Source: Acidobacteriota bacterium
Lineage (GTDB): Bacteria; Acidobacteriota; Terriglobia; Acidiferrales; UBA7541
DNA length: 41,595 bases
Reading direction: 5' to 3'
NCBI GenBank assembly: GCA_003223255.1
Contig: QHYJ01000057.1
Location: 1 to 41,595, forward strand
Positions 8,678 to 41,221 of this stretch are shown here, one piece after another. Numbering within the stretch: position 1 is the stretch's first letter; each line of letters opens with the position of its first letter. The notes beneath the pieces are model-generated. The model ran no database searches, was not told the DNA's origin, and saw only the letters and a list, made by a program, of their open reading frames with translations. Made by a program: the position numbers and the translations under genes.

Positions 8678-8760
8678 GGATCTGGATTCGGTTGCTTCAC
8701 CTTTCTGCAACAGAGTAAGAATCGCCGTCAGATTGGTCAACAGGGTGGCCTAAAAAGCAC

Positions 8761-13500: not shown

Positions 13501-13646
13501 ACCGTGGCCCCTCCAACCACGGCGCCGGTTGGATCCGTGATCGTTCCCTGAAGAGTCGCGCTGGCCGTGGCCTGGCCAAACGCGTTGCCGCTCCCCAAGC
13601 TCAATAGCACGACTCCCGTGATCAACAAATATGCCAATTTTCTCAT
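10545..13646 (-). CDS. TonB-dependent receptor, Oar-like, with carboxypeptidase-regulatory-like domain
   Basis: This complete 1033-residue outer-membrane receptor has a textbook signal peptide (MRKLAYLLITGVVLLSLGSG, cleavage near AFGQA). A carboxypeptidase-regulatory-like domain follows (about 28-115, with GTITDPTGAVVGGATVTI and LLPAGFYSLKITHTGF). The plug has LPLNGRDFGNLAYLAPGARP and GIDNKDNTVGGP, and the beta-barrel ends in FRAEFGAEFRF with a terminal Phe. The ATG is preceded by GGGGAGAAG. Although built like the 5720-8677 receptor, it differs in sequence throughout, so the two are not a recent duplication. The ligand is unknown. No TonB, ExbB or SusD-like partner is in the window. Confidence 0.93.
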   Translation of the reverse strand: MRKLAYLLITGVVLLSLGSGNAFGQATASATLQGTITDPTGAVVGGATVTITSKDQGWARTTTTTDTGLYRFELLPAGFYSLKITHTGFASASVDRAELLVGQTTTLDFQLKPGQVSETIEVSAQAPVVDTEKTQVGLEITPNDVNSLPLNGRDFGNLAYLAPGARPVDSYDPTKNRIAVFGINGSSGRNVNVTVNGIDNKDNTVGGPVMQLPLGAVEEFNISTQRFSAANGRSEGAAVNVITKAGTNNWHGGLYYYDTETALNANDAISKENKAPTPQFSRQQFGGNVGLPIRRDKDFFFFALEREREQTSIPVDATAFKELTIVKNANNPLMTPDPATTIPTPYFDWRYSGRYDHRFNGQESLFVSYSAQENTGDNDQSTSSNDLTAGNFTTNHLIISNATVNSVLTPRLVNALTVGYQYWNNLIDSKNKVPTFTFPGSSGTPISFGTNTNVPQQSIQKKWQLRDDLSIIKGHHSFKTGFDYVWEPELGGFFEFNPTLEIDFFDDPSVITTNTTKYPQGFATPGAVSGMSDTAGDPHFFLKNGAKMLGLYFQDDWKVSRKLTLNLGLRWDKDFNLIGGGDQGNSRTYQELLAIGDPHAASLPHDDNKDFSPRVGFAYDLTGKGRHILRAGYGFYFGQTFENIPLFMLQQANATIFNTTFAITGNGPGQPCSACTVPGTNIPLSQWQFGVDPMPTNPPPASQLANGAVGRLMDPKYRNPYSEQWNAGFTWALGSVSAIEVDYIHELAIHESKTININPVDVTTGTRPLSAAFSAKGLPVPSRIDNEEAIGRSRYDGLNVAFRRRLSHHLSINSSYVLSRGLAYKGNAAAFRNRPSDPRDPFNPIDFGPVPTDERHRFVFSGVFEVPGGVQLAPIFQAASARPYDGIEGSDVLGIGSGRGNYNIVVPTNAPSNYTWSLTTVSPTTGQTGLTNADLRDCLFNTHTCRAVGFDKFRGSPFVNMDLRTAKNIELGEKMNLQLLAQFFDLFNRANFGNNFGGNIRSSQFLQHTGFITPSGVIVPKSFRAEFGAEFRF

Positions 13647-25178: not shown

Positions 25179-25935
25179 TCAACGGAACCGGCGAATCACC
25201 AGATTGTGCCGGTCGGAGCGATAAAAACCCAGCACGTACATGACGGCATTGCCCCTCGTTGAATAAATGACCTGGCGAATGCGCAGTAGCGGTTCGCGGC
25301 GCGGGATGGCGAGAAGCTCGGCGATGCGCGGATCGGCGGCGGTGGCGTCGACTTCTTCGTCATAGCCCAGATCCACTTTGTAATCGCGCTCGAGAATGCC
25401 AAAAAGCGATTCGCACTCGATGGGCGATTCAAGCAAGCCGGGAAATTCGGCGGCGCTGAGATAGCAGGTTCGAGCGCGAACGGCTCGCCGGATGCGTGCC
25501 GTAGGCGTTCGAGCTTGATGATGCCGCTATGGGGAGGAAGCGAAAGGCGCGCGGCGGCATCGTTTTCATTGTCGACGATTTTGGCAAAGAGGACCTTCGC
25601 TCCGGCAGCAAGCGTGCGCGCTGCCATCTGCTCGCTGTAGCTCATGAGCCTGTTGAAATGGATTTTCGGCGGCGCGACGAACGTCCCGATGCTGCTGCGG
25701 CGCTCAACGAGACCTCGCGTTCGAGGAACGCCAGGGCGTGGCGAGCGGTCATCAGGCTGACATGATGCGTGCGCGCAAGGTCGCGTTCGGAGGGAACCGC
25801 GTCGCCGGGCTGGAGCTGCCCAGAATCGATGCACTTGCGAATGACGCTCTGAATGCGCTGATAAGCAGGCACAGCGCTTGAGACGCGGGCGGTGAAGCGC
25901 TCGAGAGCGGCTAGAGTTTTTTTGTTCGAAGCCAT
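25179..25935 (-). pseudogene. GntR-family regulator with UTRA domain, two frameshifts
   Basis: Three frames together spell one regulator of about 250 residues. The DNA-binding winged helix (YQRIQSVIRKCIDSGQLQPG, DAVPSERDLARTHHVSLMTA) is in the first. LVERRSSIGTFVAPPKIHF and the front of the UTRA ligand-binding domain are in the second. TCYLSAAEFPGLLESPIECE to IYSTRGNAVMYVLGFYRSDR is in the third. One base is missing near 25710 (CGCGAGGTCTC, where CGCGAGGGTCTC would read on), and one near 25470 (CTCGAACCTGC). UTRA domains usually sense sugars or sugar phosphates. The gene is divergent from the receptor cluster and is its likely repressor. Two independent one-base losses mean either true inactivation or locally poor sequence. 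Confidence 0.8.
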
Positions 25936-26025
25936 CCGTTGCCCCTTTTTCCGAGCGAAAGGAACGCCGAAGGAAGCGACGCCTTACATCGTCCCACCCG
26001 TTTACTCCTATAGGGCCATCGACAG

Positions 26026-26039
26026 CCGCTATAGAGCGG
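26026..26039. promoter_or_regulatory. Inverted repeat CCGCT-ATAG-AGCGG
   Basis: Five-base arms surround ATAG in the space between the GntR remnant and the receptor gene. A second CTATAG lies 20 bp to the left. It may be part of the operator region; its role is not known. Confidence 0.35.
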
Positions 26040-26044
26040 TCAAG

Positions 26045-26056
26045 TACCAATTGGTA
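26045..26056. promoter_or_regulatory. Perfect palindrome TACCAATTGGTA, candidate GntR operator
   Basis: This 12-bp perfect palindrome lies about 50 bp upstream of the receptor's -35 box and 110 bp upstream of the GntR start. Position, symmetry and an AT-rich centre are what one expects of a GntR/HutC-type operator, but no binding data are available. Confidence 0.5.
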
Positions 26057-26103: not shown

Positions 26104-26132
26104 TTGACAAGCAACGATTTGTGCTATATAGC
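26104..26132 (+). promoter_or_regulatory. Sigma70-like promoter of the receptor cluster
   Basis: A perfect TTGACA (26104-26109) is followed after 17 bp by TATAGC (26127-26132), or after 15 bp by TATATA. The -10 region lies inside the palindrome GCTATATAGC (26123-26132). It is about 115 bp upstream of the receptor start. Confidence 0.6.
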
Positions 26133-26247: not shown

Positions 26248-29200
26248 ATGAGAAAGATGCAGTACCTGGGGCTGGGAGCAGTGCTGTGTGCGCTGGTGCT
26301 GTTGCTGGCAAGCGCAAATGTGGTGTGCGCGCAGGAAGTTACCGCTACGATCACCGGAACGGTGACGGACTCAACCGGGGCCGCGGTTGCAGGAGCGACG
26401 GTTACGGCGAAGTCCGTGGAGCGGGGTACAGTCTTTAAAGACGTAACCAACGAGGTGGGAATTTACCGGATCACGCAGCTTCCGGTCGGCAATTACGATC
26501 TCCGCGTGGAAAAGGAAGGCTTTCAGACCGCGCTGTTTCCGTCCTTCACTTTGGTGCTGAACCAAATCGCGCGTATAGATGTTGCGTTGAAAGTTGGCCA
26601 AGTGAGCCAGGCGATTGAAGTGACGGGCGCTGCGCCCGTTCTTAAAACCGAAACTACGCAGGTAGACACCATTATCAACGCGGCCACCAATGAGGCGATT
26701 CCCTTGGCGACGCGCAACTATGTGGAGTTGACGTTGCTGGCCCCCGGCACAGTCACGACGGATCCCCACAGCCTAAACACCGGTGATAACACCGGCAGCG
26801 GCGGCCGGCCGCTAATTAATGGGAATCGCGAGCAATCCAACAATTTCCTGCTCGATGGAATGGACAATAACCAGGTTTCGGACAACCTGCCAGGTTTCGG
26901 ACAACCTGCTTGGATACACACCCGCCCCTGACGCCTTTGAGGAATTCAATCTCATCACCAATAACGCCTCCGCCGAGTTCGGAAACTTCGAAGGCGGAAT
27001 CGTCAGCGTCAGCATCAAGTCTGGCACGAATAGCTACCACGGCGACGTCTGGGAATTCTTTCGCAATGACAAATTGAATGCGAACAGCTGGTCCAATAAT
27101 TTCAGCGGAACGCCCCGAGACAAGCTGCGGTGGAACATGTTCGGAGGGACTCTCGGCGGACCGGTCTTCAAGAATAAGCTCTTCTTCTTTGTTGACTACC
27201 AGGGACAGCGTTTTGACCACCCCAGCTCGACGAGCCCGATCACGGTGTTCACGACCGCTGAGCAAGCTGGTGATTTTTCCCAGCTGCTAACTCAAAAGGG
27301 CATTCAACTTTACAATCCCTGCGCTGCCGGTACCGGAATCAACGGCGTACCCTGCGCGGCAGCCGCGGTTCGCCAGCCGTTCGTGAACAACCAGATTCCG
27401 ATCGGCATGATCAGCTCGGTCGCAAAGGCTCTATTCGCTTCGTCGCTATACCCGACCACCATCAACAATAACTTACAGCAGAACGCTCTCAATACGACCA
27501 CCTCGTTGTTGAATTCAAACCAAGGCGACATCAAGGTGGACTATCAGTTCTCCGATAAAGATCGCGTGTCGGGCCGCTTCACGCGGGCCTATCAGAACAA
27601 TCCCAGTACAAACTCGCAGCCGCTCATCGGCAACGGCTCTTCGACGGCCCCGATCTGGAACACTGTGGTTGATTGGACTCGCACCATCAATCCGAGTCTG
27701 GTGAATGACGCACGATTCGGCTGGAGCCATATCACTCTAAACACCGGCTCAAGCTTCGTTTCGGGGGTTGGCGCATTTGGAAACTCAATCGGAATTGGGA
27801 ATGGAAATCCTAACGGACTGAATGGATTACTCGCTCTCAACGTCGGAAATATCTTAAATGCCGGGAGTGGCAACGCAAACGGGTTGGGCAACAGCCTGGT
27901 CACGCAGAGCTTTGACGACCATGTCTGGCAGCTGGACGATTCGGTCATTTACACGCGCGGGCGGCATTCCATTAAGTTCGGCTTCCAGTACTGGGATGAG
28001 CCCATTAAGACTTTTTATTCGGGCAACAACGGTGAACTAGGGCTCATGGACTTCACGAGTAATTTCACCGCTTCTGCTGCCACCAATCCGTTAACCAATT
28101 CGGGCGAGGGCATGGCTGACTTTTTCCTTGGCCTTCCCACGGAGTTCGGGCGCGGCCTGAGCACGGGGCGAACTTGGGAGCAATCGTCCAAGATCTTTGC
28201 CGGATACGCCCAGGATACCTGGCGGCTCACGGATCGGCTGACGGTGAATGTTGGCTTGCGCTACGAGGCGCATACGCCTTGGGTGGAAACCAATAACCAG
28301 CAGGTGAATTATGACCTCAAGACTCAACAGATCGTGTTCGCGAACCAGAATGGAGCAAGCCGGGCCCTCTACAATGGGGTCTATGGAGGCAAAGACTTCC
28401 AGCCCCGGCTTGGTTTTGTATGGACTCCCGCGATGCTAGGCGGGCACACGGTCGTCCGCGGAGCGTTTACCATTTCCTCCTATCTTGAGGGAACGGGTAC
28501 CAACCTGCGCTTACCGATTAACCCACCCTTCAATCCTGCGGAGCTGGACGTCCCCTACCACGGCGTGGTTCCACATCAACCGGAACGAGTTGCCCGAACT
28601 ACTCCTGCTTCGCAGGTGCGCTGCTGCGTGTCTGGGATCCAAATGTGCAGCCTGCCCTGTCTGATCAGTGGAACCTGACCGTGCAGCACCAGTTCTGGGG
28701 CAATACGACGTTTCAGATTGGCTATGTGGGTCAACGGGGAACCCACTTGATGGTGCCGTTCTCTTATTCACAGCGCCAACTGCTTACGCCAAGCGCATCC
28801 TGCCCTGCTCCATGTACAGCTCCGAGCCCGTTCTTCGCGAACAATCCTGCGCTCCTGAGCACTATATCCCCGTTCACCTCCGGAACTCAGTCCAACGGCA
28901 ACATGACGTACAACGCGTTGCAAGCCGTGCTGCAAAAGCAGATGAGCAAAGGCTTGCAGTACCAGGTGGCATACACCTACTCGAAGTGTATGACCGACAA
29001 CAGCGGCTACTATGGATCTTGGGGAGCCGAAGCCACAACCGCTTCACCGTATTGGCAGAATATCTACAACCCCAAGGCCGAATGGGCGCCATGCTATTAC
29101 GATGCGACTCATGTTCTTTCATCCTACGCGATTTATGAGTTGCCCGTGGGCCGCGGCAAGGCCTATGGAAAGGATATGAATAAGGCAGCGAACGCCGTCG

Positions 29201-29661
29201 TGGGGGGGTGGACTGTCAGCCCGATCCTTTCTCTGCGTAAGGGTTTCTCGATGACTCCCTATGGCAGCGGCGACCAGTCTGGCACAAATTCTCGCAGTTC
29301 CCGTCCTGATTGTGACTCCATCGCGAAGGTTCAGGGCAGGGTGGCAGGCACTGGATTCAACGGCATCCAATGGTTTACCAACAACGGCAATTTCAGCGTT
29401 CCGGCGGTCGGCACATTCGGGACCTGCCCTGCTCAACTCGGCTGGTTGCGCGGTCCGGGGTACGCTGATCTCGACCTAAGCCTGCAGAAGAACTTTCAAC
29501 TTACGGAACGGTACAAGCTTCAGTTCCGTAGTGATTTCGTGAACGCCTTCAATCGCGTCAATCTCAACGCGCCAGATATGAACCTTGGAGCTACGATGGG
29601 ACAAATCACCGGAGCGCAAGACCCCAGGAACATCCAGTTTGCGCTGAAGTTTTACTACTAA
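26248..29661 (+). pseudogene. TonB-dependent receptor, Oar-like, interrupted by a 19-bp duplication and a one-base loss
   Basis: The parts add up to an outer-membrane receptor of about 1130 residues. It has a signal peptide (MRKMQYLGLGAVLCALVLLL), a carboxypeptidase-regulatory-like domain (GTVTDSTGAAVAGATVTAKS), a plug (NNFLLDGMDNNQ) and a long barrel ending in IQFALKFYY. The ATG at 26248 has GGAGGAG at ideal distance. The frame breaks at 26871-26908, where a 19-bp sequence is present twice in tandem; removing one copy restores QVSDNLLGYTPAPDAFEEF. It breaks again near 28574, where one base is missing between GVVP and STGTSCPNYSCFAG. If both are real only the plug half is made. It leads the TPR/CRTAC1 cluster behind the promoter and palindromes. 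Confidence 0.85.
26871..26908 (+). repeat. Perfect 19-bp tandem duplication inside the receptor gene
   Basis: The unit ccaggtttcggacaacctg occurs twice with no gap (26871-26889 and 26890-26908). The extra copy adds 19 bases and shifts the frame by +1. Confidence 0.95.
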
Positions 29662-29681
29662 CCTCTCAGTGCAGTAGCATG

Positions 29682-29720
29682 TGGGGCAGGGGGACAACCA
29701 CCTGCCCCATTTTGATTTTT
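29682..29720 (+). terminator. Rho-independent terminator after the receptor gene
   Basis: TGGGGCAGG and CCTGCCCCA form a 9-bp perfect stem with a 10-nt loop, followed by TTTTGATTTTT. The T-rich tail ends exactly at the ATG of the TPR gene, so it should limit read-through from the receptor gene. Confidence 0.85.
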
Positions 29721-30749
29721 ATGAAGCTCATTCGACACGCAACTACATTTCTCCTCTTTGGATTGATCGCAAGCCGAGTGGCGGTCGCTCAGACCCCACA
29801 GAAGTCGCCTAGAGCGGCAGGCAAGGCGTCAGGGGTTGATCCCGCAACGGCCGTGAAGCAGAGTCTCTCGCTGGCAGAGCACGGCAAGTGCAAGGAAGCA
29901 CTACAATTTTTGAAGAAGACCTCGCCTACTGCCGACAAGGAGCTAAAGCTCAAAGCAGGCGTAGCCACGGTGCGCTGCGCCATCAACCTCGATCAAAGAG
30001 GCGCCGCGACCGAAGCCATTGAGCTGCTCAATCGGGAATTCCCGCACGACCCGGAAGTCCTCTACATTACGACGCACGCGTACTCCGATCTTTCGACGCG
30101 AGCGTCGTTGGAACTGGCGAGAACTGCTCCGAATTCTTATCAGGCCCACGAGATGAATGCTGAAGCGCTGGAGATGCAGGGCAAGTGGAACGACGCGGCT
30201 AAGGAATATCAAACGATCCTGCAACAATTTCCCAGCGTTCCAGGGATCCACTTCCGTATGGCTCGCCTTTATCTTTCGAAACCGGACGCTGGACCGGACG
30301 CCGGCGAAAAGGCCAAAAAAGAATTGGAGGCGGAGCTGGAGATCGACCCAAAGAACGGGGACGCAGAGTATTTGCTCGGCGAATTGGCGCGCGAGGCGGC
30401 GCAGTGGGACGAGGCCGTCGGTCATTTCTCGAAAGCAACAAAGCTAGAGCCGAATTTTCCCGACGCGTTTCTGGGGCTAGGGATGGCGTATGTGGGAGCG
30501 GGCGAGTTTGCGCAAGCGATAACGCCCTTGGAGACTTACGTGAAAAGGCAGCCGGCAAATCCTGCGGGCCATTATCAATTGGCCGTAGCCTATAGCAAGA
30601 CCGGACGGATGGAAGAGGCCAAGCGAGAGGCAGCGTTGCAAAAAGCGGCTGCCCAGAAAATCGAGCAGGAAAAACAAGAAATAGCAGATCCCGGTCAGAA
30701 ACCGGCAGCGGGGCAGGAAGCGCAAAAGCCGGAATTGCGGCAGCAGTGA
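29721..30749 (+). CDS. Exported TPR-repeat protein
   Basis: The 342-residue protein has a signal peptide (MKLIRHATTFLLFGLIASRV, cleavage near AVAQ). A helical domain of about seven tetratricopeptide-like repeats follows (for example LEMQGKWNDAAKEYQTIL, LARE..QWDEAVGHFSKATK and LGLGMAYVGAGEFAQAITPL), then a charged Gln/Glu/Lys-rich C-terminal tail from about 300. TPR proteins act as scaffolds; in this setting it could organise the receptor and the two FG-GAP proteins on the periplasmic side. The ATG at 29721 directly follows a terminator's T-run and has no Shine-Dalgarno. It is therefore either translated from a leaderless message or dependent on read-through. Confidence 0.8.
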   Translation: MKLIRHATTFLLFGLIASRVAVAQTPQKSPRAAGKASGVDPATAVKQSLSLAEHGKCKEALQFLKKTSPTADKELKLKAGVATVRCAINLDQRGAATEAIELLNREFPHDPEVLYITTHAYSDLSTRASLELARTAPNSYQAHEMNAEALEMQGKWNDAAKEYQTILQQFPSVPGIHFRMARLYLSKPDAGPDAGEKAKKELEAELEIDPKNGDAEYLLGELAREAAQWDEAVGHFSKATKLEPNFPDAFLGLGMAYVGAGEFAQAITPLETYVKRQPANPAGHYQLAVAYSKTGRMEEAKREAALQKAAAQKIEQEKQEIADPGQKPAAGQEAQKPELRQQ

Positions 30750-30795
30750 CCTTTTCTATGACGGCATGGAGAGCTGTGCTTAACCAAATGTGGGC

Positions 30796-32561
30796 ATGAG
30801 TTCTGCAGGGTCCCGGCGACAGCGAGTGAGAGAGAACATTCAACGGTTCCCGCCGAAGGACGTCCACTTCAGGCCGAAGTTTGCGATTGTCTCTTTTGTC
30901 TCGCCTTGTCTAGTTTTGCTTTCGCTGGCAATGCTAATGGCCATCGCTCGCGTTCATGCGCAGACTGCACAGGTTGGTCCTATCCATTTCACAAACGTCA
31001 CAACAGCGGCAGGAATAAAGTTTGTGCATTTCCGGGGAAACGACGGAATTCCCATCAATCGAGAGATCTTTGGCCCCGGCGTGTGCTTGGCCGACTACAA
31101 CGGGGATGGCTATCAGGACATTTATTTTGTGAACGGCCGGGATCTTTATCGTCGCGGCATCGCCGCCGCCCGCAACGCGCTATACCGGAACAACGGTGAT
31201 GGCACGTTCACGGACGTCACAGAAACCGCCGGAGTTGCGGGCACTGGGTACGGCCTCGGGTGCATTTGGGGCGACTACGACAACGACGGCTTTCCCGATC
31301 TTTACGTGACGCAATACGGCCGCAACGTTCTATACCACAACAATGAGGACGGGACGTTTACCGACGTCACGGATAAGGCGGGAGTGGCGGGCCTGGAGTT
31401 CGGAACGCAGTTTCATTCCGGCGCGACGTTCTTCGATTACGATCGCGACGGGCGCCTGGATCTCTACGTGGGCGGATACGTGGCCTTGGAGAACGGCCCA
31501 AGGTATTGCAACATCAGTGGCGTGAAAACCAGTTGTCCTCCTGAGGCGTACAAAGGGACCGCTGATATCCTCTACCACAACAACGGCGACGGAACTTTCA
31601 CCAATGTGACGAAGGCCGCCAAGATCTACGAGCCGCAGGGCAAGAATCTCGCGGTGGGGGCGGCGGACTACGACAACGACGGGTGGCCGGATTTGTTCGT
31701 GGCCAACGATGGGCTGAACGCTTACCTCTACCGCAACCAGCGCAACGGAACGTTCGACGAAGTCGGAGTCATCAGCGGAATGGCGCTGACGGTGCGAGGC
31801 AACACCATGGCCGCCATGTGCATTTCGCTTGGGGACTATGACAACGACGGCTGGCTGGATCTTTTCATCACTGATTTTCAGAAGAATTCGGATCATCTCT
31901 GGCACAACGATGGCAAGGGCTCGTTTGACGAGGTCAGCGACCAGGCGGGCATCACCGTGCCGACACGCGACGTGCTCAGTTTCGGCGGAGGTTTTTTTGA
32001 TTACGATAACGACGGCTGGCTGGACTTGTTTATCGCCAATCGCTCTTTCACAACGATGGGATCGGCAAGTTCGTGGAGACCACCAAGATTGCGGGCTCTG
32101 GCTTTGAGACGCCTTACGTGGGGCGGGGCGTTGCTTTCGCCGATTTTGACAACGACGGATTCGTGGACCTGGTCGTCGCCAATAACGGAGACCCGCCGCT
32201 GCTGTTGCGCAACAGCGGCGGCAACGGCAACCACTTTGTGAATGTCAAGTTGGTGGGCCGGAAGAGCAACCGTGACGCGATGGGCGCGCGTATCCGCGCC
32301 GCGGCAGGAGGCCTTCGGCAAATTCGTGAAGTTGCGGGTGGCGGCAGCTATCTTTCTCAAAGCGACCTGCGCGCGCACTTCGGGCTTGGCAAATCGACTC
32401 GAATCGACAGCATCGAGGTGCTTTGGCCGAGCGGGCTGAAACAGGCGTTTCGCGATCTGGAGGCTGACAAGTTCTACAGGATCGAAGAAGGACGGGATGA
32501 AATCGGCCTCCAGCGATTTGCACCTCACTCCGAAACCCCGAAGCGGGATGCGCGACCTTGA
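30796..32561 (+). pseudogene. CRTAC1-like FG-GAP/VCBS protein with ASPIC/UnbV domain, internal deletion
   Basis: The protein (about 590 residues if joined) has an N-terminal membrane or signal segment (FAIVSFVSPCLVLLSLAMLM) and a beta-propeller with seven calcium-binding DxDxDG loops (DYNGDGYQD, DYDNDGFPD, DYDRDGRLD, DYDNDGWPD, two DYDNDGWLD and DFDNDGFVD). The C-terminal ASPIC/UnbV domain contains LVGRKSNRDAMGARI and GGGSYLSQSDLRAHFGLG. The frame breaks near 32040: FIAN is followed at once, in another frame, by LFHNDGIGKFVETTKIAGSG. The conserved segment that normally starts NGH (about 20 residues) is missing. This is a deletion of about 60 nt with a frame change, not a simple base error. 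The TTGA overlap couples it to the next paralogue. Family function is unknown. Confidence 0.85.
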
Positions 32562-34276
32562 GCCGGCCTAAGAACCTGCGGCTTGCCAATGGCATCTCCC
32601 GCAGAGGGTTTCTGCGAGCGCTGGCCGGAGCAGCGGCCGCGCACGGAATTCCATCCTTCGCTTTTCCCGGAAACGAGCAAGGAGCTTTTTTCTCCGAGGT
32701 TCCGGCCTCCGCAAGCGGAATTACGTGGCGACACGTGAACGGGCGCTCGGCGGACATGTATTTGCCGGAGACAACGGGGGCAGGCTGCGGTTTTCTCGAT
32801 TACGACAACGATGGGTGGATGGACATTTACCTGGTGAACAGCGGAGCGTGCGATTTCTACATGCCGCCGGCGCCGCTGCGCAATGCGCTCTATCGCAATA
32901 ATCGGGACGGGACTTTTACGGATGTAACGGAGAAAGCAGGCGTTTCCGGAGGTGGCTACGGGCAAGGCATTGCCGTCGGTGACTATGACGGCGACGGCTT
33001 CCCCGACATCTATTTAACGCAGTATGGCCGCAGCATTCTGTATCACAACAATGGAGACGGCACCTTCAGCGATGTGACGGAAAAGGCCGGGGTCGCGGCG
33101 CCAGGTTGGGCGACCAGCGCGGTGTGGTTCGATTACGACAACGACGGAAGGCTCGATTTGTTCGTGTGCCGGTTTGTGGATTTCAGCAAAGCGAGAAACA
33201 AATGGTGTGGCGACCGGAACACCAATGAGCGATGGTATTGCATTCCCCGCGTGTATGAACCCATGCCGTGTTGGTTGTTCCATAACAATGGCAATGGCAC
33301 GTTCACGGACGTTAGCAAGGAGTTAAGGATCGCAGGATCGATGGCGAAGGCGTGGGGAGTGGTGGCCTGCGACATCAACAACGACGGGTGGATGGACCTC
33401 TTCGTAGCCAACGACACGGAGCCAAATTTTCTGTTTGTCAACCGAAGAGGGAAATTCGAAGAAGAGGGCCTGTTTGCAGGAGTGGCGTATAGCGCATCCG
33501 GCCGAGCGCGCTCGGGCATGGGCGTGGACGCCGCTGATTATGATCAGGACGGATGGGTTGATTTGTTCGTTTCGAACGTAGACCAGGAAATGTTTTCGCT
33601 CTACCACAACAGCAAGAACGAAACCTTCAGCGATTTCGCGATACCCACCGGCATTGGGCCGACCACCAAGTTGATGAGTGGATGGGGAGTCAAGTTCTTC
33701 GATTATGACAATGACGGCGACCTGGATCTGCTGCTGTGCAACGGCCATCCCGACGACAAGATTGACGGGCGCGTGGAAGGCGTGAAATACCTCGAGCCCA
33801 TGCTGCTCTATCGCAACACGGGGAACGGGCTGAAGAATGTCAGCGCGCAGGGCGGCGCCATTTTCTCAAAGCCGCTGGCCGGCCGGGGAATGGCGACCGG
33901 CGATTTCGACAACGATGGCGCAGTGGATGTGCTGATCTCTGTGAACGACGGAGCACCGCTGCTGCTGCGCAACAATGCTGGAAAACAAAACAACTGGCTG
34001 GGCGTGACGCTGGTGGGCAAAAAATCAAATCCGGATGCCGTGGGGACGCGGCTAGCCTATCAAGCGGGAGATTTGAAGAAGAGCCGGATAAAAGTGGGAG
34101 GCGGGAGCTATCTGTCCTCGCATGATCCCCGAATGGTGCTGGGGATCGGCAAGCGCGAGAAGGTGGACCGGCTCGAAGTGAAATGGCCGCTGCCGGGCGG
34201 CGCAACGCAGCGTTTTACAAGCCTGCCCATCAACCGGTACATCACGATCGTCGAAGGGCAAGAGCGGTGGAGCTAG
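32558..34276 (+). CDS. CRTAC1-like FG-GAP/VCBS protein with ASPIC/UnbV domain, Tat-exported
   Basis: The 572-residue protein is the intact paralogue of the preceding one. It starts with a TTG that overlaps the previous stop (TTGA). A twin-arginine signal ([19 protein letters not shown], about 14-32) suggests export of a folded, possibly metal-loaded protein. Seven DxDxDG calcium loops are spread over the propeller ([63 protein letters not shown]). The C-terminal ASPIC/UnbV domain has [15 protein letters not shown] and [18 protein letters not shown]. The NGH segment lost in the neighbour is kept here ([10 protein letters not shown]). No catalytic residues are known for this family; binding of carbohydrate or protein partners is a guess. 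Confidence 0.88.
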
Positions 34277-34704: not shown

Positions 34705-35496
34705 TTAGAGAAACCGCAAGCGCTGCGTACGCTGGCTTTCGTCTGCCATAAGCGCGACGGCATGTTTAAATCCGGAAACACACCGGCGCATGACCGAAAG
34801 GCTGCCGTAGTAATCGTTGTACCGAAAAAAACCTGTTTGTCCTCGCCACATGGGATAGAAGTCACAAGCCCGGAGCCATTTCTCATAGACAGGGTCGACG
34901 TCGATGTAGGTGTCCGCCACGAAGCGGTTGGCATCCTCCCAGTTGTCCGCGTAGAAAACTTTAGAGACTGAATGGGCGGCGCGGCTCCGCTCGAGAGTTT
35001 CGAGTGCTGCGAAGAAGACGGCATCGCGGACAATCCTATGGCAGTTTCGGTGATCTTTGTGCCAGCTTCCCCCCCAGTGAGTCACTACGATGTCAGGTTT
35101 ATGTTCGCGGATTGCGTCACAAACTCGCAGCGCGCTCTCTTCATTGAATGGGATCTCGCCATCCGGGTAGTCCATGAAGACAGCATCGATGCCGAGGAGG
35201 CGAGCAGCTTTCTCAGTAGCCGCGCGCTGCATTTCGCCGTACTGATTGACGGGGGTGTTCTTCGGAGCTCCCCTCTCTCCCAGCGAAAGGTTCACCAACA
35301 CTGCCGTTCCCCGGCGCTCGGCCTGCTGCGCAAGAAGAGCGCCCATGGTGAAGAGGCCGTCCCCAGGATGAGCTGCAATCGCCATGATCTTGCCTGGATG
35401 AGCAGCTTCCGATGCTTCTGCCGAGAGGGACCTTTTGGGGAACACGGACAACATCGCCGCACTTCCTATCCCTTGAGCGAAGGAACGCCGGTCCAT
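34705..35496 (-). CDS. PIG-L (LmbE) family deacetylase, Tat-exported
   Basis: The 263-residue protein belongs to the zinc-dependent PIG-L/LmbE family, which removes N-acetyl groups from glucosamine-containing molecules. The first motif is AHPGDG (42-47): zinc ligands His43 and Asp46 are kept, but the usual catalytic-base Asp of AHPDD is Gly45. The last zinc motif is HKDH (146-149). LGERGAPKNTPVNQYGEMQR and WRGQTGFFRYNDYYGSL mark its subgroup, where, as far as I recall, the Gly is common. A twin-arginine-like signal (MDRRSFAQGIGSAAML) points to the periplasm. AAGGAGG before the ATG is a strong ribosome site. It is the last gene of the MFS/GH42/SIS set. Confidence 0.85.
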   Translation of the reverse strand: MDRRSFAQGIGSAAMLSVFPKRSLSAEASEAAHPGKIMAIAAHPGDGLFTMGALLAQQAERRGTAVLVNLSLGERGAPKNTPVNQYGEMQRAATEKAARLLGIDAVFMDYPDGEIPFNEESALRVCDAIREHKPDIVVTHWGGSWHKDHRNCHRIVRDAVFFAALETLERSRAAHSVSKVFYADNWEDANRFVADTYIDVDPVYEKWLRACDFYPMWRGQTGFFRYNDYYGSLSVMRRCVSGFKHAVALMADESQRTQRLRFL

Positions 35497-35524: not shown

Positions 35525-36697
35525 TTAAGACGGAGCCGAGGGTTTGAGAAGCGCTCGACTCGCGCGCTTGGAAACAGCCGCCGTTAAAGCAGCCACCCCT
35601 ACCGCGGCGAAAATCGGGATCAGCACCACCTGTCTAACGCCATAGGAAGCAATCCAGCCGCCAAGCTTTGGGCCAGCCATGCCTCCCACCAGCGGAACGG
35701 CAATGACAGCCCCGAAGACGGTGCCCGTCTCTTCAGGAAAGCGATCACCGGCCATCCCCAGAGCTGTTGGGAAAATGGCTGACAGTCCCATACCAATGAC
35801 AAGAGCGGCCACGACTGTGCCGAACATTTGATTAGCGGTTCGCATGAGAGCGCCACCCGCGACGACAGTGGCGGTCGAAAACCAGATCGTGTACGTGCTG
35901 CCAAGCCGGCTCAGATAGAGTGCGGCCAGCATCCTGCCGGCGCCGAGCGCGGCGGTCAAGGCAACTAACGCTATGTTCGCGCGGCTCGGGGAAACGCGAA
36001 GCGCATCAGCAGCAATTTTCCCCGTCCAAACGAACATGCAGTTTTCACTTCCAGACTCGAAAAAGAGCAGGGCGGCAAACAACCATATGGCGCGATGGTT
36101 CAGAACGCTAAGAAGCCTCCTCAGCCGAGTGCCAGACTTCGCCGGCGGAGGAAACCGGAGCGAGAGCAAGGCAATCGCGATGACGAGGCATAAAATCGCC
36201 AGGCCATGCAGCACAACAGATGCGGAAAGATTCCCCGCGACCGAAGATAACAGCAGCGGGGCCGAGATTGCACCCAGGCTAAAGAGGAAGCCGAGGAGAT
36301 TAAGCGCGGCTGCGCGCCTCGGCGCGCTTACGTCAGCGACCAACGCATTGGTAGCGGTGTTAAGTCCCCCGCCGCCTAAGCCATAGAGGAAAGCGGCTGC
36401 GGCGAACTCTGAGTACGAGCTTAGGGATGGCATCACGCCAAGCGAAGCGGCAACTAGTCCAAGCGCAACCGCCAATACACCTTTAGCTCCAAACAGGTCC
36501 AGGATCGGGCCGACCAACACAGTCGAAACGAATATACCCGCGAGCGGGAATGATCCGAGATTCCCAGACCGTGAATACGTGAATTGCAGGGAAGGAAGAA
36601 GCGAACCCATGAGCAGCAGCACCACGCCAAACACAAACATGCAAGCATTGGCTGCTGCGAGAAGCGGTACGCGTTGAATGCGGCGCGCGTCAGCCAT
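35525..36697 (-). CDS. MFS transporter, probably for a sugar
   Basis: The 390-residue protein has twelve hydrophobic segments in two halves, joined by a cytoplasmic loop near 185-200 (FPPPAKSGTRLRRLLSVLNH). This is the layout of the major facilitator superfamily. GPILDLFGAKGVLAVALG is the conserved loop between helices 2 and 3. The GGGLNTATNALVAD stretch in helix 4-5 resembles FucP-like and related sugar permeases. It lies 28 bp before the PIG-L gene and 51 bp after the glycosidase gene on the same strand, so import of the released sugar is likely. The ribosome site is weak. Substrate inferred only from context. Confidence 0.8.
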   Translation of the reverse strand: MADARRIQRVPLLAAANACMFVFGVVLLLMGSLLPSLQFTYSRSGNLGSFPLAGIFVSTVLVGPILDLFGAKGVLAVALGLVAASLGVMPSLSSYSEFAAAAFLYGLGGGGLNTATNALVADVSAPRRAAALNLLGFLFSLGAISAPLLLSSVAGNLSASVVLHGLAILCLVIAIALLSLRFPPPAKSGTRLRRLLSVLNHRAIWLFAALLFFESGSENCMFVWTGKIAADALRVSPSRANIALVALTAALGAGRMLAALYLSRLGSTYTIWFSTATVVAGGALMRTANQMFGTVVAALVIGMGLSAIFPTALGMAGDRFPEETGTVFGAVIAVPLVGGMAGPKLGGWIASYGVRQVVLIPIFAAVGVAALTAAVSKRASRALLKPSAPS

Positions 36698-36748: not shown

Positions 36749-39064
36749 TCACGAACCTCGCACCTGAAACACCCAGGTTTCACCTCCGGCCAATCTCTTT
36801 CGAAACAGAGCGCCAGCAGCACTTTTCTCAAAAGGGACGGGTTGATCGTTTTCGAGTTCGCGAACTTGGTCAATTCCCCACGGGAAACGAACTCGCAGCG
36901 TCATATCAGCGGAACCGTCGGCGTGGTTGAACACGAAGATGATCTGCTGCCGCTCGCTGTTGAGCCGCCGCACCTCGACTTGTGAAGTACCTGGCCCGGA
37001 AACTTCCGTATCTGGCGACACTCCCGCTCCCTCGGCTAGAGAAAGGAAGAGATCCCGAATGGCCGGATCGTGCTGTTCCTGGTAGGCGAGCGCCAGGAAG
37101 GATCCGATTAAGACCGCCTTACCCTTGCCTTCTTGGTGCTCCACAATGGCCGGGCTGCCGTCAGAGAAGCGCGCCACCATACTGGCGCCCGGCAATGGAG
37201 AGAGCTGCTCTTCGAAGGCTTCGCCGGCAATCATGGTGTGAGCCGGCAAACCCGGGAGCGCTGGCGACTCTTCTGTTTGAAGTTGTACGTTTTCTGCGGG
37301 GATGATGATGTATTCTCGCGCGCCGAAAACTTCGGCCAGACCCGCGCCGGGAATCACCTCGCTTGCAAAACCCCGGGCGTCATTCCACGCCAGGCGCGCC
37401 TCGGCCACCGCAGTCCCACCACCCTGGACATAGCGTTTAACGCCATCCGCGACATTCTGCGGCAGCATCACCGGGTAAGGAAGAAAAAGAATTTTGTATT
37501 GTTCGAGGTTGTTGGAGGCTACATCTTCGGAACGAACGAAGTCCACCGAAATGTTCTTTTCGAAGAAGACTCTGTAGAGACCCAAAAGCGAGTCGCGCTC
37601 TGCATGCCCCAGCTTGGAAAGTGAAGGCTGCGAGCCGCCCACCATATAGGAGAGGCGATTATAAAGAATAGCGACTTGCGCCTGGGGAGGTGCGGACCGC
37701 AAAAGCTCGGCACCCTGCCGGGTGAAGACGCTTGCCACGTGCCCGGCCGCCCGCGCGCGTTCGGTGAGCGTGCCGTCCAGGTTGATGAGGCCATAACCGT
37801 TGGATTCAAAACCCGAACTCATCGGATACCAGGCATAGACGGCGATTTCCCGCGCCCCGTGCGCGACCACCTGCCACATCCAATATTCTTCATCATGGCC
37901 GTTCACCGGATTCGCGATGCGCATCCCGGTAGCGCCTTGCCCAGCTTGCAGTTCGCCAATCCAAAAGCCCTTACCAAAGCTATGCGCAGCAGAGCGGCTG
38001 AAATCCAGAGCTGCCGCCAACATCACGTAAGACCACGGCTTGCTGGATTCCGAGTGCTTGGGATAAAGCGAGGTGCCGAAGAAGTCCGCACTTTCCGACA
38101 TTTTCCAGTCGTCCGGCTCGCCATAGCCGTCCGTTGGGGAAGTGAACAGCGCCGGAACCGCCGCATGACTCGTGATCGGGTGAGTTTGATCGGCGCTGCG
38201 AACTGCGTCCACTCGCGTCTTCAAATCCTCCGCCAGCTTGTCGTCTATGAACGCACGCCAATCGAGGTAATCCGTATAAGAAAGAATGGTCGGGAAGCGC
38301 GGCGGCTGGACCTGATCCCAAGTTTTGAAGCTGCGATACCACGCGGCGTTCAGCGCCTCAAGACTTTGATATTTCATCATCAGCCATTGGCGGAAGCGGG
38401 CTTCCGTATACGAGCAAAAGCAGAACTCCGGGTTCGCCAAATAGGGAAATTCCGCCCAGTTGATGACGTGGGGTTCGCTCCAAACGTCCCACCCATATAG
38501 CGCCGGGCTTTTGTTGGCATCGCGTGACAGAGCTTGCAAGAATTTGACGATGACCGACCGCACGCCGTTATGGTCAATGCAGTAGCCTGGCGCGGCTTGA
38601 GAATCAATGATGGCGCCGCTGCGGTCAACGAAGCGCGCATCGGGATAATGCTCACCGACCCAATCGGGCGCCGAATCAAGGTAGACTTGTACGATAACTC
38701 GCAAGCCGCGTTCCTGCGCTAGGCGAAGCAGCAGGTCGAGATTCGCGAAATTGTACTCTTTCGGACGCGGTTCCGCTGAGGCCCAATCCACCCAGGTCTT
38801 TATAGTGTTGAACCCATCCGCCTTGATCTCATCCAGGTCTCTGCCCCATCGCCGGGCGCTTGTGGCATCCAAATGTTCAAGCATGGGAGCGCGAACTTTT
38901 CCGCCCCCGTACCATACGGCCACGGGGAAGAAGGATTCAGGGGATCCGGCAGCCCGGCTTTTCTGGAGAGCAGGCATCTTGCGCGCGTGAGAAGCAGGTC
39001 TCATGCCGACTTGCGTTGCCAGCAGAAGCAAAACGGCTACGCCCAACTTGCGGCAGGAATTCAT
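36749..39064 (-). CDS. Secreted GH42-like beta-galactosidase/glycosidase
   Basis: The 771-residue protein has a signal peptide (about 4-20) and a (beta/alpha)8 barrel of the GH42 type: WYGGGKVRAP start, then GFNTIKTWVDWASAEPRPKE. The acid/base Glu197 lies in YGWDVWSEPH, where classical enzymes have WNEP, and the nucleophile Glu371 in FWIGELQAGQ. A trimerisation-like domain with a class I amidotransferase fold follows (about 460-680: ILYNRLSYMVGG, ILFLPYPVMLP, YVQGGGTAVAEARLAW, EHQEGKGKAVLIGSFLALAY). A short beta-domain ends the protein. It should hydrolyse beta-galactosides or similar glycosides outside the inner membrane. Length is slightly above the usual 650-700 because of the leader. Confidence 0.85.
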   Translation of the reverse strand: MNSCRKLGVAVLLLLATQVGMRPASHARKMPALQKSRAAGSPESFFPVAVWYGGGKVRAPMLEHLDATSARRWGRDLDEIKADGFNTIKTWVDWASAEPRPKEYNFANLDLLLRLAQERGLRVIVQVYLDSAPDWVGEHYPDARFVDRSGAIIDSQAAPGYCIDHNGVRSVIVKFLQALSRDANKSPALYGWDVWSEPHVINWAEFPYLANPEFCFCSYTEARFRQWLMMKYQSLEALNAAWYRSFKTWDQVQPPRFPTILSYTDYLDWRAFIDDKLAEDLKTRVDAVRSADQTHPITSHAAVPALFTSPTDGYGEPDDWKMSESADFFGTSLYPKHSESSKPWSYVMLAAALDFSRSAAHSFGKGFWIGELQAGQGATGMRIANPVNGHDEEYWMWQVVAHGAREIAVYAWYPMSSGFESNGYGLINLDGTLTERARAAGHVASVFTRQGAELLRSAPPQAQVAILYNRLSYMVGGSQPSLSKLGHAERDSLLGLYRVFFEKNISVDFVRSEDVASNNLEQYKILFLPYPVMLPQNVADGVKRYVQGGGTAVAEARLAWNDARGFASEVIPGAGLAEVFGAREYIIIPAENVQLQTEESPALPGLPAHTMIAGEAFEEQLSPLPGASMVARFSDGSPAIVEHQEGKGKAVLIGSFLALAYQEQHDPAIRDLFLSLAEGAGVSPDTEVSGPGTSQVEVRRLNSERQQIIFVFNHADGSADMTLRVRFPWGIDQVRELENDQPVPFEKSAAGALFRKRLAGGETWVFQVRGS

Positions 39065-39183: not shown

Positions 39184-39939
39184 TCATGAGCTTCGGCGCG
39201 TCAAAGTGCGCGTGTACTCCTCGAAGACTCGTTTGTTGTGATCCGGCGACGTGCTCACGTTAGGCGAAACAAAAGTCATCGGGCGTTTCCCGCTCCGCAC
39301 AAGCCCAGCGCCAACTTCAGCAACCAAAGCCATGGCAATCGAAACGGCGGCAATCGTCGAGCCGGCGGCAAACTTTTCCGGGACTCCATCCACGGCTACT
39401 AGGGCGTCCTCCGGCGGAACACAATTGTCAATCGCAATGTCGGAGACGTCCGGGAGCTTCTTTTTGCTGGAGTGCCTCGCCGGAGCCACGCCGTAGTTCT
39501 GATGCGAAGAAACGGAGACGACTTTGGCGCCGTTCTCCCGCGCGGCCATTGCGACTTCTATGGGGACAGCGTTTAAGCCGCCGTGAGAAAAAACCAGAAA
39601 GGAATCGCGGGGCTTGATTTCGTAACTAACTAGGAGGATGCGCGCATATCCCTCCTGCTGTTCCAGCCAAAGCAGTTCTCGGGCTCCGCCAGGGCCTACT
39701 ACGTTGAACCACATCAGGCGAGGATCATAAACAGGATAAAAGCCGACAAAGCTCCCGTAGCGCGGAAAGATGTCCAGCACCGGTATCACGGAATGGCCGC
39801 TGCCAAATAAATATGCCCGTCCGCCACTTGCGATTGAGGCGGCAAGCACCTCTCCCGCAGCAATGATCTTTTCCTTCTGCGTCGTTTGTATTTGGGCGAT
39901 GATCTCCCTAATGCGGCTCAAATATTGCTGCGCAGACAT
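39184..39939 (-). CDS. SIS-domain sugar isomerase-like protein (UPF0309 type)
   Basis: The 251-residue cytoplasmic protein carries one SIS (sugar isomerase) domain, a phosphosugar-binding fold. GGRAYLFGSGHSVIPVLDIF (about 39-58) and FLVFSHGGLNAVPIEVAMAA hold the phosphate loops; GAKVVSVSSHQ follows the second. VDGVPEKFAAGSTIAAVSIA near the C-terminus is typical of the UPF0309 group, often found with amino-sugar genes. AGGAGAACTGAAAG before the ATG gives a good ribosome site. It is the first gene of the minus-strand set and faces the ROK kinase gene across 334 bp. A role as isomerase, etherase or sensor of a sugar phosphate is possible. Confidence 0.8.
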   Translation of the reverse strand: MSAQQYLSRIREIIAQIQTTQKEKIIAAGEVLAASIASGGRAYLFGSGHSVIPVLDIFPRYGSFVGFYPVYDPRLMWFNVVGPGGARELLWLEQQEGYARILLVSYEIKPRDSFLVFSHGGLNAVPIEVAMAARENGAKVVSVSSHQNYGVAPARHSSKKKLPDVSDIAIDNCVPPEDALVAVDGVPEKFAAGSTIAAVSIAMALVAEVGAGLVRSGKRPMTFVSPNVSTSPDHNKRVFEEYTRTLTRRSS

Positions 39940-40273: not shown

Positions 40274-41221
40274 ATGCCTTTGCATGTCTTTGCAGTGGAT
40301 CTCGGCGGCACGAAGTGCTCGGCCGCAATAGTGGATCGCGCCGGCCACGTGCTTCGCTGCCGCACAGTGCCCGTCAACCTTGCTTCGACCTCGGGCCCGA
40401 TTCTTCAGATTTCCCAGCTTGCGAAGGAATTTGCTGGCGGGAAAAGTCCCTCAAAAGCCTTCGCGGCAGCAGGCATCGCCGTGCCTGGACTCGTGCGGCC
40501 GAACGGAACCGTCTGGGCGCCGAATCTTCCAGGCTGGATTCGCATCCCGATGGCCCACCGCTTGAAGCGTCAACTTGGAATTCCTGTAGTGGTAGAAAGC
40601 GATCGCGTGGCCGCCATCCTGGGTGAATCCTGGCGCGGGGCGGCACCGGGCAAGTCAGACGCCATTCTCTTGACGATTGGCACGGGAATTGGCGCAGGCA
40701 TTTTGAGCGGCGGCCATGTCGTCCGGGGAGCTCATGAGCTTTCCGGCTGCGCCGGGTGGGTGACAATTACGCGGGAACATGTTCCTGATGCCGCCAAACT
40801 AGGCGAGCTGGAGTCCTTAGTTACGGGACCTGCCATTGCGCGGATCGCTCGGGAACGCTTGCTGAAGGGAGAGAGGAGCATTCTCTCGCGTTCGCAACAC
40901 GCTCAAATCACAGCTCGGGATGTCGCCGACGCCGCGCGCCAGCATGATCGGCTGGCGCTGGACATTTTCGACCGCTGCGGCAGGCTTCTCGGTTTCGCTG
41001 TCGCTAATCTTGTGAGCCTTTTTGATCCGGAGGTTGTGATTCTCAGCGGTGGAATGGCGGCAGCCAGCGATCTTTATTTAAGCTCGCTACAAACGGCGAT
41101 GTTTGAGCGCGCTCAGCCGCTCGCGGCGAGGCAAGTAAGGATTGTAGTGAGCAAGCTCGGGGCCAAAGCCAACCTGCTAGGTTGTGCGCGCTTGGCTTGG
41201 GCGTCATTAGCGAAAGCCTAG
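40274..41221 (+). CDS. ROK-family sugar kinase
   Basis: The 315-residue protein has the ROK fold. The ATP-binding loop DLGGTKCSAAIVD is at 9-21, the sugar-binding region includes GIAVPGLVRPNGTVWAPNLP, then VESDRVAAILGESW with the catalytic Asp, TIGTGIGAGI, and near the end VVILSGGMAAASDLY. The EIGH-type motif is altered (HELSGCAGWVTI), and the Cys-rich zinc site of bacterial ROK glucokinases is absent, so it is a divergent member. Likely substrates are glucose, N-acetylglucosamine or mannosamine. AGGA stands 7 nt before the ATG. The stop codon lies at the border of the IS5-like element, so the original C-terminus might have differed by a few residues. Confidence 0.85.
   Translation: MPLHVFAVDLGGTKCSAAIVDRAGHVLRCRTVPVNLASTSGPILQISQLAKEFAGGKSPSKAFAAAGIAVPGLVRPNGTVWAPNLPGWIRIPMAHRLKRQLGIPVVVESDRVAAILGESWRGAAPGKSDAILLTIGTGIGAGILSGGHVVRGAHELSGCAGWVTITREHVPDAAKLGELESLVTGPAIARIARERLLKGERSILSRSQHAQITARDVADAARQHDRLALDIFDRCGRLLGFAVANLVSLFDPEVVILSGGMAAASDLYLSSLQTAMFERAQPLAARQVRIVVSKLGAKANLLGCARLAWASLAKA

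Follow-up and report, generated by a model that had tools for sequence, protein, structure and literature searches.

We analysed a stretch of 41,595 nucleotides, in the following called the window, which is contig C264 (QHYJ01000057.1) of the draft genome of an Acidobacteriota bacterium (GCA_003223255.1; 6.66 Mb in 428 contigs). At positions 26248-34276 it carries a gene cluster for a TonB-dependent outer-membrane receptor, an exported TPR protein and two calcium propellers of the CRTAC1 type, next to a divergent gene for a GntR-type regulator. A preliminary description of the window had seen in this cluster a possible uncharacterised uptake system. Here we suggest that it probably takes part in the utilisation of amino sugars. 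G000 denotes the genome of the window, other G numbers denote further genomes, L numbers loci (stretches of DNA) and C numbers contigs of G000.

The features were derived from a listing of the open reading frames and a Pfam scan of those in the window, and orthologous loci were compared. The receptor gene lies on the forward strand (26248..29661) and is read in three frames (26248-26931, 26819-28678 and 28645-29661), with Pfam matches on each piece, the first being queried from 26245. Window pieces and intact orthologues alike have the Oar/SusC architecture of TonB-dependent receptors, that is a CarboxypepD_reg domain together with an outer-membrane barrel (OMP_b-brl_4 in the window). Two intact orthologues gave no match to Plug (PF07715) at E 1e-5, and a stretch is present between CarboxypepD_reg and PF25183; comparison of an intact orthologue with the PDB sequences gave no match at E 0.1. 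The TPR gene (29679..30749, forward strand) matches TPR families, and its product shows by eye a Sec-type signal after an internal ATG at 29721, in agreement with the exported TPR protein described before. The first propeller gene, CRa (30790..32561, forward strand; FG-GAP_3, UnbV_ASPIC), is split into two frames (30790-32241 and 32073-32561). The second, CRb (32558..34276, forward strand), is intact; with its FG-GAP_3 repeats carrying calcium loops and its UnbV_ASPIC match it belongs to the CRTAC1/ASPIC-UnbV propeller family. Its TTG start codon lies inside the TTGA overlap with CRa at 32558-32561, which is real. Seven DxDxDG loops are found in CRb and 6+1 across the two CRa pieces. The Tat signal assigned to CRb was seen by us, too, as the motif SRRGFLRAL spotted by eye, which we take to be a twin-arginine pattern. 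By eye, no lipobox was found in the TPR or CRTAC1 copies of the window, and the Pfam scan of the cluster gave no match to the SusD family (PF07980/PF12741/PF14322) and no protease gene.

On the reverse strand, upstream of the receptor, lies the gene of the GntR/UTRA regulator (25196..26050), with a UTRA match and two GntR-like pieces; the listed open reading frame reads only part of it. The receptor is indeed flanked by a divergent GntR gene, but both genes are frame-broken. Between them we find TTGACA as a candidate -35 box facing the receptor (26104..26109, forward strand) and, 13 nt further on, the palindrome GCTATATAGC (26123..26132) as a candidate operator over the -10 position. A search with the operator pattern gave a second site with one mismatch, GCTATAGAGC, at 26028..26037. 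Two further palindromes near 26045 (TACCAATTGGTA) and 26075 (TCTCGAGAATCTCGAGA) do not recur in the lists of best palindromes of the other GntR loci.

The cluster is not peculiar to the window. A relative of CRb is present at E 1e-100 or better in 60 of the 89 genomes of the family. For 199 unique CRTAC1 proteins (450-800 aa) we surveyed the neighbouring genes; 22 of the proteins are from the own genome, 75 from the same family and 102 from a named collection, the latter two groups picked by likeness to CRb and thus an uneven sample. Within 0-1.5 kb of the CRTAC1 gene receptors occur at 0.120 (own), 0.150 (family) and 0.094 (named) per kb and at 7.5-9 kb at 0.000, 0.000 and 0.012; for TPR genes the density is 0.26-0.32 per kb nearby and 0.036-0.045 farther off. 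The consecutive co-directional order receptor-TPR-(CRTAC1-)CRTAC1 is seen for 3/22 own, 23/75 family and 11/102 named CRTAC1 genes, tandem pairs counting twice, and G000 alone has three receptor-TPR-CRTAC1 sets. Thus the cluster recurs in Acidobacteriota beyond chance. The lack of recurrent co-localisation which would have refuted the preliminary description is not seen, and its notion of an uncharacterised receptor-linked uptake system is supported. Tandem CRTAC1 pairs (L032, L103, L104, L105 and the window) are rarer than single copies; the 4-bp overlap is shared by L103, L104 and L105, and in L032 the two genes are separated by 49 bp. Receptor-TPR-CRTAC1 sets without this GntR gene have other neighbours, a GH3 gene in L157 and a glucoamylase-type gene in L150; by eye, L150 and L161 also show the starts of LacI-like proteins. 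The module possibly serves several glycans.

Of the 299 genomes of the class, 32 have an orthologue of the GntR regulator at E 1e-45 or better; together with the earlier loci, 37 unique intact GntR loci were obtained. The HutC-like combination of GntR helix-turn-helix and UTRA is intact in the orthologue of L102; in the window copy the Pfam scan shows UTRA only, and all NCBIfam matches of the regulator to GntR models are below cut-off. A divergent receptor adjoins the GntR gene in 24 of the 37 loci, and in 14 of these TPR and CRTAC1 genes follow directly. Among the other ten, four end at the contig end (L160, L201, L204, L211) and six do not (L196, L202, L205, L207, L208, L209). In a second arrangement the GntR gene is followed by nagB, with an ABH gene upstream (L192-L195, L197-L199, L203), and in L102, L103 and L105 both are combined, as the receptor module lies between ABH and GntR-nagB. 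The nagB product of L102 is above the TIGR00502 cut-off (293.1 vs 236.9 bits).

The palindrome GCTATATAGC was picked by eye from palindromes upstream of GntR genes. The 38 GntR-upstream regions (22,290 bases) contain 39 exact copies, and 36 of them have a site with at most one mismatch. In all loci together (3.14 Mb, duplicates included) there are only 44 exact copies; the five elsewhere lie at receptor 5' ends (L011, L165), in L143, which is a duplicate of L010, before a receptor near the GntR gene (L212) and at a contig start (L169). In G000 there are exactly two, at position 26123 of the window and at C329:37146, the latter before a second GntR gene and nagB. Across 12 genomes we counted 26 exact copies and 51 of the reversed control pattern. 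The palindrome is thus neither rare nor frequent as such; its placement is what counts. Nineteen of the 26 genomic sites could be assigned, 16 to GntR promoters, two to nagB/SSS and one to SSS. In G025 and G032, both outside the discovery set, nagB is not beside the GntR gene, yet an exact site lies between nagB and the divergent gene of an SSS symporter. These two sites appear to be the strongest point for a shared operator. In G328, which has no nagB match, the site is just upstream of the SSS gene, and among the 11 genomes with nagB, 10 have an exact site that precedes nagB or the GntR-nagB pair. Judged by this placement, nagB and the transport genes have a candidate operator in common. At both nagB/SSS operators a further palindrome, AGTATACT, stands directly beside GCTATATAGC (area of 4334-4341 in L239 and of 8413-8420 in L240).

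A TTGACA box (at most one mismatch) precedes the site by 6-23 nt, mostly by exactly 13 nt, on the side away from the GntR gene in 32 of 40 exact sites; on the other side it was found at 2/40, with a background of 7%. Wherever the genes are divergent this promoter faces the receptor, and GCTATATAGC overlies its -10 position as expected of the site of a repressor. The same geometry could mean that the palindrome is nothing but a conserved -10 element, TATAGC being placed at -10 by the box 13 nt ahead, and common regulation with nagB would then not be established. We regard this as very improbable. Conservation extends to the outer GC...GC and to the perfect dyad, the 6.66 Mb genome has only the two copies, and L011, L030, L106, L207 and L213 contain two or three exact copies each. 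Furthermore, the two nagB/SSS sites (G025, G032) have no adjacent TTGACA; the palindrome is therefore more than a promoter box. In GntR-nagB loci that lack a receptor, promoter and operator face a small conserved open reading frame of 93-142 aa (HFPATALLTD...TRTF), which is found between GntR and ABH in L192-L195 and L203, with fragments in L197 and L199.

The genes around the regulator point to amino sugars. We compared 39 GntR loci (0.72 Mb), receptor-less nagB loci included, with 143 CRTAC1 loci lacking this GntR gene (2.16 Mb), using query proteins drawn from the regulon loci, which favours matches there. The GntR loci contain nagB in 14, a glucokinase-like kinase in 7, a ROK kinase in 7, an SSS symporter in 5 and GH20 in 3 of 39 cases; the corresponding numbers for the 143 other loci are 0, 0, 2, 0 and 1. 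In L165, GH18, GH20, a protein of the GH2 exo-beta-D-glucosaminidase type and ROK surround GntR-receptor-TPR-CRTAC1, L207 and L208 have GH20 and SSS beside GntR-receptor, and the order in L030 is SSS-GntR, receptor-TPR-CRTAC1, kinases. At the genome level nagA passes its cut-off in each of 11 genomes and GH20 in each of 14, G000 being among both. Since 7/14 control genomes pass for nagA and 4/14 for GH20, these genes are common there, too, and we read them only as allowing the pathway. The operator-bearing GntR-receptor locus in L209 (1571-8968) stands beside peptidases of the peptidoglycan type (S13, M15 with beta-lactamase, M23), which is possibly a case of cell-wall amino-sugar recycling.

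We suggest that the module is the outer-membrane arm of a regulon for the utilisation of amino sugars, that is oligosaccharides of the N-acetylglucosamine (GlcNAc)/chitin type, in Acidobacteriota, and we consider this reading fairly likely. Recurrence and operator placement are taken from the sequences; substrate, binding, complex and location we infer. The uptake could proceed in the following steps. The GntR/UTRA repressor would bind to GCTATATAGC and would free the promoter once an amino-sugar phosphate builds up. The receptor, judging from its family, would pass the glycan across the outer membrane with energy from TonB. The exported TPR protein would dock on the receptor and carry the Tat-exported calcium propeller or propellers, which would bind the glycan. 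The sugars would then be processed by a deacetylase or by a glycosidase, cross the inner membrane through a symporter and, by way of a kinase, reach NagA/NagB. TPR protein and propellers would most likely be placed at the periplasmic face of the membrane, and alternatively at the surface after further export. We prefer the periplasmic face because lipoboxes are rare: a lipobox-like pattern was found in 3 of 36 TPR and 1 of 36 CRTAC1 proteins (searched within the first 60 residues of the called frame, where over-long starts could hide some), which favours a periplasmic site or export by another route. A Tat pattern is present in 28/36 CRTAC1 proteins, and in two more by eye.

Could the receptor then be a secretion device? 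An Oar-like receptor might export folded, Tat-exported propellers to the surface or the medium, with the TPR protein as a periplasmic chaperone. The Tat signals and the rare lipoboxes would fit, and Oar is known to secrete PopC, in a study whose authors consider import and secretion not yet separable by sequence (PMC6434023). The candidate operator, however, links the receptor to nagB/SSS promoters, and the GntR-receptor loci hold sugar genes. Moreover, ten of the 24 divergent loci have no consecutive TPR-CRTAC1 run behind the receptor, and as six of these are not cut by a contig end, the receptor can occur without an in-line propeller gene. Secretion thus fits the regulon less well than uptake, and we hold it to be quite improbable.

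How the three proteins might belong together was addressed with distance matrices of 33 receptor-TPR-CRTAC1 sets from outside the window. The distances correlate with r 0.77 for receptor-TPR, 0.69 for TPR-CRTAC1 and 0.53 for receptor-CRTAC1; the partial correlations are 0.65, 0.52 and 0.01, all values ignoring shared descent. It looks as if the TPR protein bridged receptor and propeller, and for receptor and CRTAC1 there is no link beyond the TPR protein, which again does not speak for a secretion of the propellers by the receptor. The same values bear on the idea that the propeller caps the receptor from outside and hands over the substrate, as BtuG does on BtuB (PMC10404256). This precedent and the CRTAC1-type genes beside SusC/SusD in some Bacteroidota make such a lid conceivable. 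BtuG and SusD are surface lipoproteins, however, most of the Acidobacteriota proteins have no lipobox, and receptor and CRTAC1 show no direct co-variation. We therefore find a surface lid rather doubtful. It is also imaginable that the regulon is correctly recognised, with the receptor as the sole uptake component, and that TPR and CRTAC1 genes are passengers with a role in adhesion, matrix or periplasmic folding. They do cluster without a receptor (a TPR gene without a receptor upstream is found for 31/102 CRTAC1 genes of the named collection), and in L196, L207, L208 and L209 no TPR-CRTAC1 follows GntR and receptor though the contig continues. The recurrent co-directional order given above and the co-variation of the TPR protein with both neighbours are not what one would expect of passengers, and we judge this explanation unlikely.

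The folds were modelled with AF2. The CRb model (pLDDT 91.2) matches best to murine CRTAC1 (9etn; Z 41.0, rmsd 2.5, 455 aligned residues). With Foldseek, GlcNAc-binding fungal lectins follow at ranks 2-4, 6-8 and 15, but the VIA-align matches listed are general seven-bladed propellers, so that the model gives a hint, not more, of a lectin likeness. The TPR protein (mean pLDDT 81.8) is predicted as a plain TPR superhelix with matches to consensus TPR, OGT and MamA (3vty; Z 21.3, rmsd 2.7, 178 aligned), and SusD is absent among the fold-search matches listed. Homology of the TPR protein to SusD thus appears less probable.

Several observations weigh against the amino-sugar regulon. GCTATATAGC was chosen in the same regions in which its enrichment was then counted; the sites independent of this choice are those between nagB and SSS in G025 and G032 and the one before SSS in G328, and no others. 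An exact copy is missing from six of the 38 regions (L003, L165 with one just outside, L198, L212, L214, L215), L212 and L215 do not even have a site with at most one mismatch, and 7 of the 26 genomic sites are without a fitting neighbour. In G007, the closest relative by CRb, the roughly 1.1 kb before nagB contain no site at up to two mismatches, and the SSS copy of G000 (on C122) has none at up to one mismatch in its 1.5-kb flanks. In most GntR-nagB loci examined the promoter faces the small open reading frame, not nagB. No amino-sugar marker is seen, within the stretch covered, in nine of the 24 GntR loci that have a divergent receptor, and the GH3 and glucoamylase-type neighbours elsewhere mean that the module as such is not specific for amino sugars. 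Concerning the propellers, the 50 VIA-align matches listed contain no GlcNAc lectins; they are general seven-bladed propellers. The TPR proteins of the window and G019 share only 58% identity (65% for window and G006), yet the receptors of the window and G019 share 92%, which counters a tight pairing of receptor and TPR protein. Finally, GntR, receptor, CRa and nagB are all frame-broken in this assembly.

The breaks can be localised. The GntR gene has lost 1 bp near 25470 and near 25710, as judged against L101, L103, L105 and the own-genome paralogue L203; the receptor gene has a 19-bp tandem duplication at 26891 and a cluster of indels near 28540-28620; CRa is broken near 32040. Receptor, CRa and GntR are all intact in three same-genus relatives (L103-L105), and all six such relatives (L101-L106) have an intact receptor (1147-1199 aa), TPR protein and CRb-type propeller. 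An intact CRa of 616-677 aa is present in L103-L105 and in none of L101, L102 and L106. The dN/dS values of the pieces are low (receptor ~0.11 vs L105, CRb ~0.18 vs L101, CRa ~0.07 vs L103); for the TPR gene the value was not measurable as the synonymous sites are saturated. Of 50 receptor, CRTAC1, nagB or GntR genes in the own-genome loci 7 are listed as more than one adjacent frame, among them one at a contig edge which is possibly two genes, and the window CRTAC1 group, which counts the separate CRb. Because of the low dN/dS and the split genes elsewhere in the genome we take the breaks to be either recent events or errors of the assembly, and not old decay. The only nagB found in G000 (C329:38222-38928, L203) is likewise split in two frames. 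Compared with the six relatives, 26248-34276 has a mosaic history: the receptor is nearest to G019 (92%), CRb to G007 (91%), and the TPR protein is at most 65% identical to any of them.

Further genes adjoin the cluster. These are a PIG-L family deacetylase with a Tat-like start seen by eye (34705..35496, reverse strand; PF02585), an MFS transporter (35525..36697, reverse; PF07690), a GH42 family enzyme (36749..39064, reverse; PF02449/PF08532), a SIS-domain sugar isomerase (39184..39939, reverse; PF13580, NF002805 above cut-off) and a ROK family sugar kinase (40274..41221, forward; PF00480), whose best NCBIfam match, a ROK glucokinase subfamily, is below its cut-off. Deacetylase, MFS transporter, isomerase and kinase are common to the window and L101; GH42 stands among them in the window only, and in L101 it is not between MFS and SIS. 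The statement of the preliminary description that neither a SusD-like nor an enzyme gene is present holds inside 26248-34276, but an absence of enzyme genes nearby has to be rejected in view of this deacetylase, GH42, isomerase and kinase. Two more OMP_b-brl_4 receptors with a CarboxypepD_reg extension are encoded in the window at 5720-8740 and 10545-13646 (reverse strand).

What is new relative to the first reading is the regulatory link to amino sugars. G000 gave 72 matches to receptors, some of which are pieces belonging to the same gene, and 28 to ASPIC. Its SusC/Oar-like receptors and its propellers of the CRTAC1 type number in the dozens, with no function assigned, and one such system now becomes testable. 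It could serve as a template for reading others in which receptor-TPR-CRTAC1 stands beside a sugar regulator and glycosidases, and it gives a hypothesis for the role of bacterial CRTAC1-type proteins. In the literature on ASPIC/UnbV/CRTAC1 with TonB-dependent receptors, on uptake in Acidobacteria and on NagQ, the titles and abstract starts among the matches listed contain no description of the module, subscription journals being mostly outside the coverage. ASPIC/UnbV proteins are named in the Solibacter genome paper, in its accessible parts in paralogue tables only (PMC3174227).

Among the known systems, the nag regulons of Proteobacteria come closest in regulation. There the GntR-family protein NagQ controls nagAB, the NagR regulon of Xanthomonas includes TonB-dependent receptors and the regulons reach chitin genes (PMC5343134). 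The system described here belongs to another phylum, its candidate operator is the palindrome GCTATATAGC whereas the sites of NagQ, like NagR and NagC a point of comparison, have been described as tandem repeats, and TPR and CRTAC1 genes are part of the receptor operon. Oar of Myxococcus xanthus has the same N-terminal CarboxypepD_reg extension before the receptor; it has a developmental role and secretes the protease PopC, and receptors for secretion and for import cannot, according to the authors of that study, be distinguished by sequence so far (PMC6434023). Our cluster, in contrast, contains no protease gene. As to the propellers, both PVL and cartilage acidic protein have been described as having integrin-like calcium blades (PMC3123361). 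CRTAC1 and, by Foldseek, the FG-GAP lectins such as PVL and the Agrocybe lectin are among the nearest folds to CRb; they are an animal matrix protein and fungal lectins, and the VIA-align matches listed lack the lectin ranking. BtuG is a seven-bladed propeller, too, and a lid on the TonB-dependent transporter BtuB in vitamin B12 uptake (PMC10404256). Here, too, such a propeller would be an accessory of a TonB-dependent transporter, but BtuG is a lipoprotein lid for corrinoids, whereas the FG-GAP/ASPIC propeller is of the calcium-loop type and Tat-exported.

A further comparison is that with the SusC/SusD glycan uptake systems of Bacteroidota. Alike are the CarboxypepD_reg-extended receptor and the adjoining partner gene. 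In Bacteroidota SusC-SusD-CRTAC1 are consecutive in L184, L187 and L189, CRTAC1 lies one frame beyond SusC-SusD in L190, and SusD and CRTAC1 are adjacent in L055, L182 and L183; this makes 7 of 12 stretches examined (five genomes, two of the 12 stretches overlapping). Relatives of this kind, 1100 aa long, are present at E 1e-150 in no more than 4 of the 60 genomes of that family. In L055 (8788-14054) the CRTAC1-type gene is followed by a match to the middle domain of hydrazine synthase alpha and by a YncE-propeller/cytochrome-type protein, L048 has a run similar in length and start sequence, and comparable genes have been described near homologues of anammox enzymes (PMC12758564). The preliminary description had proposed that the propellers replace SusD. 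As CRTAC1-type genes coexist with SusD in Bacteroidota and the TPR gene holds the SusD position, this idea is weakened and we reject it. Because CRTAC1 follows SusC-SusD there and SusD itself has a TPR core (PMC2954216), gene order makes the TPR protein the positional counterpart of SusD and the propeller the counterpart of the third component. Unlike Sus, the module gives no SusD-family match, its TPR partner is modelled as a plain superhelix and usually has no lipobox, the barrel is PF25183, and where the Sus partner is a surface lipoprotein, lipoboxes are scarce in the TPR and CRTAC1 proteins of Acidobacteriota. This suggests a system which resembles the Sus system of gut bacteria but is not Sus. 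More tentatively, and with more doubt than belief on our side, it might represent, outside Bacteroidota, a third type of TonB-dependent uptake aided by partner proteins: a TPR protein in the place of SusD would hold a calcium propeller exported by Tat, and the folded lectin-like propellers would be non-lipidated capture proteins for amino-sugar glycans. Lipoprotein-capped transporters seem to be exclusive to Bacteroidetes according to the authors of the BtuG study (PMC10404256); if our suggestion is true, Acidobacteriota would have found a solution of their own which does without lipoproteins.

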